Positions 22,539 to 54,648 of a DNA stretch of 64,000 nt are shown here, one piece after another (positions within the stretch are counted from its first letter, which is position 1; each line of letters begins with the position of its first letter). The position numbers were made by a program, and so were the translations under genes. The notes beneath the pieces were generated by a model. It did not search any database, was not told where the DNA came from, and was given only the letters and a program-made list of their open reading frames with translations. Where the stretch lies: the IMG/VR virus record IMGVR_UViG_3300008267_000006, positions 1 through 64,000 of that record; one strand, written 5' to 3'. Source of the stretch: a virus.

Positions 22539-23267
22539 TTATCCTCTTACTTCGTAATACGCTTTAATTGTCTCGGGATATAGTCCCTCAAGGATACGTA
22601 GCATCGCTTCCGCGACGACTTGTATCTCGTATTGCGCGCCATCGTGACTCCTTAGATCAATAAACTTAAGAATATTATTTAGATTTGCACTTGCATAATA
22701 TTCTGTATATAAATTTTGTGGAAGTACACCGCGAGCTTGTTCACGACAAACGCCTGCTTCCATTAAATTATTATATAATTTGACCGAATTTTCATGCCAG
22801 TTTTTAACTACTTTTGATGCTGAAAGTAACATACCCATTGAGCCATCTCCAAAATCTAGAATGGGATCAATTTGCTCGTCGTTATTACTTGCTTGTCGGT
22901 TATTAGAATGCTGAGTTCTAAAAGTTTTAGGTTCGTAGAACTCAAGACTCTCTGCTGTATAACGGCGACTGATTTCGTTATAACTCCAGGTACGATGACG
23001 ATGATGTTGTGATCTGATAAACAGTGGCACCACACATTTAAAAGTTACGTTGCAGTGCTCTAATGTACTTGTATGTCTGTGTTTTATTAGATAACGAATT
23101 AATTTTTTATCTTTATCAGATAAAAGATCTCCACTTTCATCTTTTCCAAAGCTAACTCTTGCTGCTCGCACTATTGTAGCGTCTGAACCCATTGATTGTA
23201 CAAGTTGTACTCTTCCGATACCATCACCGTATAGATCAATACTGATATTTTTATCTTCGTGATTCAC
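22539..23267 (-). CDS. thyX: Flavin-dependent thymidylate synthase ThyX
   Basis: A 242-residue FAD-dependent enzyme making dTMP from dUMP. The signature RHRx7S is at residues 90-100 (RHRTWSYNEIS), followed by RRY. Other conserved parts are DLYGDGIGRV, SFGKDESG and GVCREQARGVLPQNLYTEYY. It starts at a GTG after GGAAGGAATAAAA, overlapping the HNH gene's stop. A truncated copy of its 5' end lies upstream at 24024-24101, across the HNH gene. Confidence 0.96.
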   Translation of the reverse strand: MNHEDKNISIDLYGDGIGRVQLVQSMGSDATIVRAARVSFGKDESGDLLSDKDKKLIRYLIKHRHTSTLEHCNVTFKCVVPLFIRSQHHRHRTWSYNEISRRYTAESLEFYEPKTFRTQHSNNRQASNNDEQIDPILDFGDGSMGMLLSASKVVKNWHENSVKLYNNLMEAGVCREQARGVLPQNLYTEYYASANLNNILKFIDLRSHDGAQYEIQVVAEAMLRILEGLYPETIKAYYEVRG

Positions 23268-24951: not shown

Positions 24952-26811
24952 TTAACGAACTGGACAAGCTCCTCCTTCGCACTCCATTGAGCTTTCCAAA
25001 TTTCCTTCACCAACGTCAGTATCAGCAATTGGTTTAATTTTAGCTGATAGACGCTCGTATTGCTCCTTGGTTATTGTTTCTTTTGGAGCTTGTTTGAAGC
25101 CGTGTTCACTGTGGCATAGGAATGAGATAGTCTTTAGATATTTAAGATTCTCACCTAACCATGTTTTTAACCCTTCTATATCTTCGCGTTTATAATAAAC
25201 AGTTACTGAAACAGATTGATCGGCCCAGTGTTTTTGAGCCATCTTAACAACGTCTAATTGCTTCCACGTTGTCCAGTCTTCATCTGCTACTGGCGCACCT
25301 TCTGGTGCTGCTACATAAAAATCTACAACAAGCGTGTTGTGATCTAACGAGCCATCAAATCTTACTACTGGCTCCATGTAATGACCAGCTTCCTTTAATA
25401 GAGGAATCAGCGCATCGTTTGCAGAAAAGCGTACACGTTGAATAATGTAACGAGAGTAGCCTGGATGTACTCCTTCAAAACAATCAAAAACTTTTGAAAT
25501 AGTTCCAGATGGTTTAATTACAGTAGTACGAATACTTTCTGGAATTCCTAATTCTTTAGAATATTCCCGATTTTCATCTTGAATAGCAGCATAGGCACGA
25601 TCTAGAGTTTCTGGTTTAAACAGAGGAGATTGTAGACATCCAGTAATGCCTGTTCCAATACGACGATTACGTTTAACTACAGCGTCACATTTTGGTTGGT
25701 GGTATTTCTCCATAGTTACGCGTTTACCCCAGCGATGCATAAGGCGAGCAGCTTCTATAAATTCTGCCTCGTTAGCAAGATTTGGCAAAGCAATTTCTTG
25801 TAGGTTGCAAGGTTCACCATCTTCAAGAGTAGCCTCTGCACATGGATTTACACCAACTGCACTATCGGCTTTTAGTTCTCCCATGCGTGCATATTTTTGA
25901 ATATTAGTTCGGTTAACGATACCGAATGGTTCGCCTTCTTCGTAGGTCTTCCAGAATAGTGGATGTAGATCTTCTACGTCATCCACGACAACTGAAAAAT
26001 TAGCCATCGCACGTTGAGTTGGGATATTGCCAAGATCCCAACGTTTAGCCTTTAAGTATTCTTTATCCCAAGGATCGCCAAGAATAATAATAGCTGAACG
26101 ACGCACATTACCGGCAACGACCATTTCAGCAATCGAACACAAGATATCAGCAGCGTCAAGAGGTTTAACGTGCTTTCCGCCTCTAGTATTGAGGATTCCG
26201 CATAGTTTTTCCGCAAACGCAATAAGAGGTTTTGGACCTGATGAAGTACCTCCAAAACCGCGTATAGGCTCACCAGCAGGACGAACGCATACAGTAGAAT
26301 AGCTAAAAGATTTACCAGTAACAAAATAACTCTCCAAAATACGACGAGTCAATTCGTTCCATCCTTCTCGACTATCAGATACTATAAAATCAGCATCTTT
26401 ACTGTCACGATTTACGATATGCACGTCGCGTTTGACTTTAGGAAGCTTGCTGACAAATCTGTGTTCAACAGACATACCAACACCACCACCTAACATAAGT
26501 AGGTCTTGAGCAAGAATAAAGTTGGTCCAATCGTCACTAGCAACAAACCAGCAGTTGTTTAATGCTACACCGCCAAGACGTTTATGCGATGGAGCACCAG
26601 AATACCACCAACCACGACCAGCAGGACCGGCTTTACGTTCCGTTAAATAATATTTTAGTTTATTAATTTCACCCTCAGAAACATTATGTCCTACTGTATT
26701 TCCACGAATAATTCTATCAACTGTATCTTCCCAGTTTTCTAGCAAACCAGTGTCATTACGTGCATAGGTTCGCTTATAAACAACTTTAGCTAGATTGGAC
26801 CAATTTGACAT
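24952..26811 (-). CDS. nrdJ: Class II (B12-dependent) ribonucleotide reductase
   Basis: A 619-residue ribonucleotide reductase making deoxynucleotides. Redox cysteines are C87 (NNCWFV) and C335 (EPCNL); the radical-site trio N322-C324-E326 lies in NPCAEATLEDGE; the C-terminal shuttle pair is C611/C616 in CEGGACPVR. The length, the absence of an R2 gene and the residues SGPKPLIAFAEKL and IKPSGTISKVFDCFEG fit the monomeric adenosylcobalamin enzyme of the Lactobacillus RTPR type. It needs B12 from the host. Thioredoxin directly upstream is the likely reductant. A strong terminator follows. Confidence 0.93.
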   Translation of the reverse strand: MSNWSNLAKVVYKRTYARNDTGLLENWEDTVDRIIRGNTVGHNVSEGEINKLKYYLTERKAGPAGRGWWYSGAPSHKRLGGVALNNCWFVASDDWTNFILAQDLLMLGGGVGMSVEHRFVSKLPKVKRDVHIVNRDSKDADFIVSDSREGWNELTRRILESYFVTGKSFSYSTVCVRPAGEPIRGFGGTSSGPKPLIAFAEKLCGILNTRGGKHVKPLDAADILCSIAEMVVAGNVRRSAIIILGDPWDKEYLKAKRWDLGNIPTQRAMANFSVVVDDVEDLHPLFWKTYEEGEPFGIVNRTNIQKYARMGELKADSAVGVNPCAEATLEDGEPCNLQEIALPNLANEAEFIEAARLMHRWGKRVTMEKYHQPKCDAVVKRNRRIGTGITGCLQSPLFKPETLDRAYAAIQDENREYSKELGIPESIRTTVIKPSGTISKVFDCFEGVHPGYSRYIIQRVRFSANDALIPLLKEAGHYMEPVVRFDGSLDHNTLVVDFYVAAPEGAPVADEDWTTWKQLDVVKMAQKHWADQSVSVTVYYKREDIEGLKTWLGENLKYLKTISFLCHSEHGFKQAPKETITKEQYERLSAKIKPIADTDVGEGNLESSMECEGGACPVR

Positions 26812-29812: not shown

Positions 29813-30257
29813 CTAATTAATCTTGTAATATCCAATGCAACTATCATCAATAGTATAGTAGACCTTCTTAACCCCCTGTGCCTCAAGAACAGCATGACAC
29901 ATTGCACAAGGCTTACTCATTCTTTCTTCACCGCTTCCCTTAGCTGCACGGGCTACATAAATAGTCGCGCCACGGGTAACGTGTCGAGGGAGATTCAAGA
30001 GAGAAGCTATCTCCGCATGATATGTGCTATGTCCCTTGCTGTCGGGACGGTACTTTGCACCAACAGAACAATACTTTTCATTATTCACGCCAAGCCCAAG
30101 AATAGAACTTCCGCCACCAACCAAAACGGCTCCGTGGCGGAAGTTACCATAAGTAGAAGAAAGTGCAAGCTTCTTAGCTAACTGAAAGATACCTCCGAAT
30201 CTTCTTAGAAATATCGTTCTTAGAAAGAATCATATCCTGCGGGCCATCGTTATCCAT
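29813..30257 (-). CDS. dCMP/cytidine deaminase-like protein, needs a +1 frameshift
   Basis: The zinc-dependent deaminase signature is clear: HAEIASLL and KPCAMCHAVL, with RHGAVLVGGGSS upstream. No usable start exists in that frame. A well-placed ATG at 30255-30257 (AGGAGAAAACT before it) opens frame MDNDGPQDMILSKNDISKKI-RRYLSVS, which stops at 30174-30176. A +1 shift near CTT-TCA joins it to (Q/S)LAKKLALSSTYGNFRHGAV, giving one continuous 147-residue protein. The joint reads CGGAGG-TAT-CTT-TCA-G, like the bacterial prfB site. It is either programmed, a one-base mutation or an assembly error. Confidence 0.75.
30174..30197 (-). promoter_or_regulatory. prfB-like +1 frameshift site in the deaminase gene
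   Basis: The minus strand reads CGG AGG TAT CTT TCA GTT AGC TAA in zero frame. The Shine-Dalgarno-like GGAGG and the TAT CTT spacing copy the release factor 2 site (AGG GGG TAT CTT TGA C), with TCA in place of TGA. Confidence 0.5.
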
Positions 30258-52872: not shown

Positions 52873-54648
52873 TTAGCCTAGTAGATCTTGAATTACTACA
52901 AGACCATACATATCTGGGCGAACCATCGTCTTACCATAACGAGTCATTACAGCCTTACGTGGAACGAAGGTGTTAGGATCGAAAATGGTTGGGGTGCTTT
53001 GTAGTGGTACGTATGGGGCATATACGTAACCGCTTTCTAGGAAGCTACCACCTTTACGACCTACTAGGATTACGTTACGTAGGAAGTATGGGTGAACAAT
53101 GATATCCCATTTCTTGTTTAGATCACCAACACGAACAGCACCTACTGAACCTTTTTCATCGGTTGCAGTTACTGATGCGCGGAAACCGCTGGTGAATTCA
53201 AGAATGTTAGCAACTTCTGGACCACATACAAGGAAGTTAGCTCCACCGCGTAGAGTTTTACGATGGATTAGAGCTGAACAATCATTGATGGTTTCAACTA
53301 GGGTTTCATACCACATTTGAACGTTACCAGTGAAATCTGGAGGAGCAGCATAACCACCTGATAGGGTTGAACCTAGATCAGCGCCAGTATCGCGGTTAAC
53401 AAATTTACCTGGACGACGTGACCAGTATTTGACACCGGCAGTTGCGCCCTTGACTAGATCGTTCATGATTTCTTGATCAATTTCTAGACCAATTTGTTCT
53501 GATAACATTGAAGTTAGTTCTACTTCAGCATCTAGATTGTGATAAGCATTTAGATCTTGACCTAGTTCTGGAGTCCATGAAGCTTTTAGCTTACGTGAAC
53601 GAGCAGTGATTGAGTATGAATCGACTTTTAGTTCGATTTCTGGAATTGCTGAAGAACCTTCCATTGTCCATGGGGTTGCACCAACAACAGCACCTAATGC
53701 GCTATCACCAACAGCAACAACATTGTCCTTGACTGGGTATGATAGTAATACGTGTGAAGCGGTTACAACTGCGGCTAGAGCAGCATCACCCTTAGCAGCA
53801 ACTACAACTTCTAGTGATTTCGCACCAGTTGAAGGATCAACAAATACTCTTGATAGACGACGAACTAGTTTAGCACTATTTGCTAGTGAAGAACCAGCAG
53901 CATCTTGTTCACCAGCGGCTACCGCACCAGCATTTTGTGCAAATGATACTGAGAATACGTCATTTTCAGCTAGTAGTTGGCTGTTTGCAATATTAGCAAA
54001 TGGTACGCGTAGTACTGAAGCTGAAACGTAGTTTGAATCAGTTAGTAGATCTGCATCCCAACGTACTGCTTTTTTATCAGCATCAGAAGCGGTTGCTAGA
54101 CCAAACTTGGCTACTTCAACAACGTTTGAAGCAGTGGTTGAAGAGTGATAGCGAGCGGTGTGATAACCGTTTGCCATGTTGTAGAAACCTTTTTCAGCAT
54201 TATCTACACCTTCGATACGAACACCGCCGGTGATTTGTACACCTAGACGATCACCGAAGAATGATTCACCTTTGTTGAATACCTTGTCACCAGTGTTACC
54301 GATATCGCTTCCACGGCGGAAATCCATGAAGAATACTAGACCTGATGGTAGGCTCATTGGTTGTACTGATACTAGATCGTTAGCGATTAGACCAGCGAAT
54401 ACACGACGAACGATTGGGAACGCTACTGAGGCAAAGCCTTGTACGTCACCATTTGACATAGTGTTGGTTTCTTTTAGTAGTTCTTTTGCTTGATTCTCTA
54501 GTAGAATGGACATGGTGCTTTTTTGACGAGCATCCTTTAGACCTTCTAGTAGACCGCTCTTTTCCCATTTAGAAACTAGAGCAGCAGTTTCTTTGAGAGT
54601 ATTACGTTCAACGATACCCTCGGTTAATTTTTCTAATACGTTACCCAT
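52873..54648 (-). CDS. gp23: Major capsid protein gp23-like
   Basis: A 591-residue capsid protein of the T4 gp23 type: PIVRRVFAGLIANDLVSVQPM, GLVFFMDFR, ARSRKLKASWTPELGQDLNAYHNLDAE in part, and FVPRKAVMTRYGKTMVRPDMYG. The N-terminal about 65 residues form the propeptide-like helical region. Leucine is coded almost only by CTA and the gene looks more GC-rich than its neighbours, as expected for a highly expressed gene. Strong AGGAG site and strong terminator. Confidence 0.96.
   Translation of the reverse strand: MGNVLEKLTEGIVERNTLKETAALVSKWEKSGLLEGLKDARQKSTMSILLENQAKELLKETNTMSNGDVQGFASVAFPIVRRVFAGLIANDLVSVQPMSLPSGLVFFMDFRRGSDIGNTGDKVFNKGESFFGDRLGVQITGGVRIEGVDNAEKGFYNMANGYHTARYHSSTTASNVVEVAKFGLATASDADKKAVRWDADLLTDSNYVSASVLRVPFANIANSQLLAENDVFSVSFAQNAGAVAAGEQDAAGSSLANSAKLVRRLSRVFVDPSTGAKSLEVVVAAKGDAALAAVVTASHVLLSYPVKDNVVAVGDSALGAVVGATPWTMEGSSAIPEIELKVDSYSITARSRKLKASWTPELGQDLNAYHNLDAEVELTSMLSEQIGLEIDQEIMNDLVKGATAGVKYWSRRPGKFVNRDTGADLGSTLSGGYAAPPDFTGNVQMWYETLVETINDCSALIHRKTLRGGANFLVCGPEVANILEFTSGFRASVTATDEKGSVGAVRVGDLNKKWDIIVHPYFLRNVILVGRKGGSFLESGYVYAPYVPLQSTPTIFDPNTFVPRKAVMTRYGKTMVRPDMYGLVVIQDLLG

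Follow-up and report, generated by a model that had tools for sequence, protein, structure and literature searches.

The 64-kb stretch of phage DNA analyzed here (the window) belongs to a 111-kb virus record and carries on its minus strand a deaminase gene of the dCMP/cytidine family that is divided between two reading frames. Comparison with related sequences makes it highly probable that the two parts are expressed as one deaminase by programmed +1 ribosomal frameshifting. Frameshifting of this type is known; the novel aspect would be its occurrence in a new gene, with a stimulator and slip codon of the known kind but devoid of a stop codon.

Organization and conservation of the split gene

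The initial annotation had described a deaminase core with no start codon in its own frame and a 27-codon ATG frame, preceded by a ribosome site, that leads into it. Both descriptions proved accurate (Table 1). The core frame extends only 15 open codons beyond the joint in the upstream direction, from which ATG, GTG and TTG are all absent, and the earliest possible start in this frame is a TTG at 30124 within the conserved HGAVLV motif. The first 24 codons of ORF1 (MDNDGPQDMILSKNDISKKIRRYL) specify the N-terminus of the deaminase. The joint on the minus strand reads CGG AGG TAT CTT T CAG TTA GCT, in which skipping of T30185 fuses ...SKKIRRYL with QLAKKLALSSTYGNFRHGAV... to give a joined protein of 147 aa. 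The one-base skip envisaged at the outset does join the frames, but the fusion as first written lacked a glutamine and is correctly KKIRRYL-Q-LAKKLALSSTYGNFRHGAV.

Table 1. Sequence features of the split deaminase gene, with positions in the window.
Feature	Position	Strand	Details
ORF1 ribosome-binding site AGGAGA	30268-30263	minus	predicted from sequence; purine-rich site at the same place in relatives
ORF1	30257-30174	minus	frame 0; ATG, 27 codons plus TAA; peptide MDNDGPQDMILSKNDISKKIRRYLSVS
Putative internal Shine-Dalgarno (SD) CGGAGG	30197-30192	minus	invariant in 23/23 distinct shift members
First Arg codon of site, CGG	30197-30195	minus	
Second Arg codon of site, AGG	30194-30192	minus	
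Spacer codon TAT	30191-30189	minus	TAT 19/23, TTA 3, TTT 1; matches the usual prfB spacer UAU
Putative slip site CTT-T	30188-30185	minus	CTT 30188-30186, skipped T 30185; mechanism proposed from prfB
Frame-0 A-site codon TCA	30185-30183	minus	
First +1 codon CAG	30184-30182	minus	
Deaminase core	30184-29813	minus	+1 frame; CAG to stop, 123 aa; QLAKKLALSSTYGNFRHGAV...HAE...SKPCAMC...

The same split is present in 23 distinct deaminase genes, that of the window included, on phage contigs of 20 other metagenomes. The relatives were gathered by a search of viral contigs with the core (L002-L013), by a scan for CGGAGGTATCTTNCA and by alignment searches, and the cores of split members share 62-88% identity with that of the window. 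In all 23 a frame-0 ORF that opens with ATG closes with a variant of SKKxRRYL, after which the core follows in the +1 frame. The codons after CGG-AGG are TAT-CTT in 19 of the 23, TTT-CTT in one and TTA-CTC in three, and the spacing is constant: SD, 3 nt, CTY (23/23) and a skipped pyrimidine. The slip sequence is CTTT in the window and seven others, CTTC in 12 and CTCC in three, with the skipped base T or C, and the A-site position is occupied by TCA, CCA or CAA followed by G and never by a stop codon. A DNA alignment (A4) in which one row (L034) is misplaced was used just to read the site.

Conservation at the joint extends to the nucleotide level. The 19 members with TATCTT show an average divergence of 41% at third positions of the initial 22 core codons and zero differences in the 12-base site; CGG and AGG account for 1% and 6%, respectively, of Arg codons in genes of the window. 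Before the site, substitutions fall mostly in position 3 of frame-0 codons (304 vs 143 and 123; in the other group, 186 vs 123 and 112), and after the site mostly in position 3 of +1-frame codons (129 vs 26 and 31; 208 vs 33 and 20). Thus, each part evidently is translated in a frame of its own. ORF1, the N-terminal part of which is loosely conserved, shows the weaker bias. Exact matches to CGGAGGTATCTTNCA numbered 119 in viral contigs, including 20 in deaminase genes, and a strict frame-transition test, which demands that ATG, GTG and TTG be absent from the core frame anywhere upstream, was passed by nine of the 119, all of them deaminase genes. A conserved frame transition and nucleotide-level conservation of the shift site, by which programmed frameshifting is recognized, therefore are found together. 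These comparisons indicate that the split gene is genuine and due neither to chance nor to sequencing error. Programmed frameshifting in a nucleotide metabolism gene had been proposed initially, with uninterrupted relatives that lack GGAGG-TATCTT named beforehand as evidence to the contrary. Close relatives instead retain both the split and the site, which supports the proposal at the level of sequence.

Some members depart from the common arrangement. TTA-CTC-C replaces TAT-CTT-Y in L135, L136/L137 and L007/L157 (site CGGAGGTTACTCC). Re-pairing from CUC to UCC in these three members would produce a middle mismatch, which the slip model leaves unexplained; the conserved Tyr would be regained (RRYS) if slippage took place at AGG, two codons before. 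The basal member L007 (L007:2889-2918) also possesses, ~10 codons upstream, GTG and ATG codons that are in frame with the core, and so could start the core directly and may be an intermediate.

Identity of the enzyme and genome context

The joined protein scores 49.4 bits against PF00383 (cut-off 25), includes HAE and PCxxC, and matches PHROG 174 dCMP deaminase. Structure prediction was performed with the homologue L160, in which the same protein is encoded by a single frame. The predicted fold (mean pLDDT 92.3) has its first helix at residues 18-33, which span the joint (L24/S25), and the end of ORF1 therefore is most likely part of the enzyme core instead of a separate leader. The best solved structures in Foldseek comparisons with this fold were the human, T4, S-TIM5 and Streptococcus dCMP deaminases (moderate TM-scores of ~0.56), with E ~1e-5 for the human and T4 enzymes and ~20% identity among structural matches. 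A sequence-profile search of solved structures produced no match. The protein resembles the dCMP deaminases of phage T4 and cyanophage S-TIM5 in fold and in the HAE and PCxxC zinc motifs; neither of those genes is known to be split.

The window genome also encodes ThyX (22539-23267) and ribonucleotide reductase (24952-26811), and of 20 contigs from relatives, several of them short, 14 carry ThyX. A function in the supply of dTMP from dCMP via dUMP fits this context, with dCMP suggested as substrate by the predicted fold together with the ThyX and ribonucleotide reductase genes. Elsewhere on the minus strand, 21827-22537 matches a eukaryotic-type phosphomannomutase (PF03332, E 1.6e-30), which is unusual for a phage, and 52873-54648 encodes a large (591 aa) T4-type major capsid protein that is nearest to those of Flavobacterium phage immuto, uncultured phages, Microcystis phage Mel-JY01 and Rhodothermus phage RM378.

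Unsplit homologues and alternative explanations

The single frame in L160 encodes MDNDGPQEQLISKSEISKKNRRYLSLAKKMAECSTYGNFRHGAV... and its site reads CGA-AGG-TAT-CTT-TCG, with one base fewer and the SD broken. Thus, the one uninterrupted close relative is also without the internal SD, which is what a role of the SD in frameshifting would predict. The predicted pairing energy with the anti-SD is -10.8 kcal/mol for the split site compared to -3.9 for L160 and -10.2 for the prfB sequence AGGGGGUAU; the weight of these predictions would depend on anti-SD use in the host. L160 is nested within the shift members in the tree, with modest support, and so looks like a secondary loss of the frameshift and the SD together. 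The next homologues (L195-L249) lie below an identity gap (61% vs at most 53%). Among 33 distinct, distant homologues that are unsplit, an in-frame start precedes the core by 5-80 codons in 30; the contig ends before a start is reached in two, and one is without a listed ATG, GTG or TTG. Some unsplit homologues carry the same helix, including L241 (ASKRIQRYLDLAKRMA) which reads AGG-TAT-CTT-GAC in frame (RYLD). This suggests that the frameshift site may have arisen when codons that already specified RYL acquired the SD and one additional base. A nucleotide search of 50,697 phage records gave no match and a protein search of the same records matched distant Streptomyces phages only. Bacterial and archaeal genomes (84,980) were scanned twice; one scan yielded nothing and the other a sole relative, L249, a distant and unsplit homologue on the Opitutia MAG contig PBSV01000107.1.

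It is improbable that the GGAGG acts instead as the ribosome-binding site of a separate deaminase with a non-standard start located 7 nt (CAG) or 10 nt (TTA/CTG) downstream, with ORF1 as a leader peptide. The GGAGG is well spaced from CAG/AAG, and all TATCTT members (19/19) have CAG as their first +1 codon even though CAA constitutes 86% of Gln codons in the window. However, ATG, GTG and TTG are absent at this location in most members, and the candidate codon varies between CAG and AAG and, at the following position, among TTA, CTG, CTA, CTC and TTG. Internal initiation also leaves the fixed spacer TATCTT unexplained, and is difficult to reconcile with the fusion of ORF1 to the core in L160 and with the SKKxRRYL helix residues that end ORF1 and are present in unsplit homologues.

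The conservation of the site also bears on two further possibilities. The preservation of the shift and the 6-base SD in 23 distinct sequences from 20 other metagenomes, with either T or C as the extra base, and strong purifying selection on a core that retains HAE and PCxxC, leave almost no room for an error in sequencing or assembly, or for a pseudogene of recent origin, even though the extra base sits in a short T run. Slippage by RNA polymerase would likewise join the frames, but requires long A or T runs where here there are T3, or TTCC/CTCC, and both the SD and the codon phase are conserved at the site, so that transcriptional slippage is exceedingly unlikely. Ribosomal +1 frameshifting accordingly is the preferred explanation for the joining of ORF1 and the deaminase core.

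Proposed mechanism and comparison with known frameshift sites

In the proposed mechanism, translation would begin at the ORF1 ATG and CGG-AGG-TAT-CTT would be decoded in frame 0. The internal GGAGG, 3 bases upstream of the P-site CTT, would pair with the 16S anti-SD and loosen the P-site tRNA, whereupon Leu-tRNA would leave CUU and re-pair with UUU, which overlaps it (in relatives, UUC). One base would thereby be skipped and the deaminase core would be read from CAG onward. Non-slipping ribosomes would translate three more codons, reach TAA and release a 27-aa peptide. The parts assigned to the CUU-decoding tRNA and the SD are modelled on prfB; standard third-position pairing presumably is kept in the UUC slip of CTTC members. 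Downstream RNA structure was not evident (mean z -0.09 over 75 nt; none conserved), and the listed genes of the window contain no second site in which GGAGG or GGGGG is combined with a slip codon.

The prfB cassette comprises the SD-like AGGGGG, 3 bases, and CTTTGA then C, with TGA in >99% of cases (PMC12421855). The spacer codon is UAU or UCU, tRNA-Leu(GAG) slips from CUU to UUU, and expression drops sharply when the SD or CUU is changed (PMC13245932). The internal SD is variable, with CGGGGG in Pseudomonas fluorescens and sometimes GG_AGG in addition to AGGGGG (PMC12421855, PMC13245932, PMC5009743). The prfB likeness recognized in the initial annotation holds for an SD-like purine run located 3 nt before the slip codon (23/23), for the UAU spacer codon and for the CUU-Y slip codon, which has the prfB form CTTT in the window and seven others. 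As in prfB, where ORF1 is ~25 codons, the phage ORF1 is short and most of the protein is in the +1 frame. The replacement of the prfB TGA by TCA also was noted correctly: the A site of the phage genes is UCA, CCA or CAA, then G, and there is no UGA or UAA and no release factor 2 (RF2) feedback. Further differences are that the skipped base often is C and that the gene specifies a phage deaminase and not a release factor; no RF-1 domain was found in the 111-kb record.

The cps and tsh genes of Listeria phage PSA likewise are phage genes with a +1 shift, and the A-site codon of cps also is a sense codon (CCC_UCC; PMC5009743). In contrast to the deaminase site, the PSA sites lie in structural genes, generate two products that share an N-terminus, and employ a proline slip codon with a pseudoknot or stop as stimulator and no SD/CUU cassette. 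The cytidine deaminase gene (cdd) of Bacillus is another pyrimidine deaminase gene with frameshifting, but the shift is -1 at CGA_AAG, yields an extended product and is regarded as incidental (PMC5009743), whereas the phage deaminase would need its +1 shift for production of the enzyme. The open-paper literature, from which subscription journals are largely missing, described neither a prfB-like cassette in any gene but prfB itself nor a phage dCMP deaminase expressed by frameshifting.

The A-site codons are common in genes of the window (TCA, 31% of Ser codons; CCA, 68% of Pro codons), and +1 shifting usually requires a slow A site (PMC5009743). A stop-less site therefore should shift less, and frameshift efficiency may be low. 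The likely outcome is that a fraction of ribosomes makes the enzyme and the remainder releases the 27-aa peptide, which would establish a set-point for the enzyme level. The A-site codon (UCA or CCA) is a common sense codon, which favors a fixed set-point over the sensing of one particular tRNA or of RF2. A single tRNA is unlikely to be sensed since the codon is not constant across relatives, and because the slip site lacks a stop, RF2 sensing or autoregulation is excluded. Two related models also were considered. A rare-codon (hungry codon) model is unsupported since the A-site codons are common, and a phage tRNA model was rejected as the 111-kb record has no tRNA, though some relatives have many. 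It is doubtful, but conceivable, that deaminase yield tracks A-site filling, and hence a general shortage of aminoacyl-tRNA or elongation capacity in infection, as a stop-less regulatory frameshift. A 2016 review knew of no starvation-responsive trans-frame protein of this type (PMC5009743). If yield does track A-site filling, the phage would couple dTMP supply to the state of translation.

In the searchable literature the combination of SD and CUU is confined to release factor 2, in which the stop codon makes the cassette a sensor. Its conserved, stop-less counterpart in a phage enzyme gene suggests either reuse or independent evolution for another purpose. The natural series of CTTT, CTTC and CTCC sites, together with the in-frame revertant, lends itself to testing the contribution that the internal SD makes by itself to +1 shifting. 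Moreover, ordinary gene callers will miss or truncate the deaminase in such phages.
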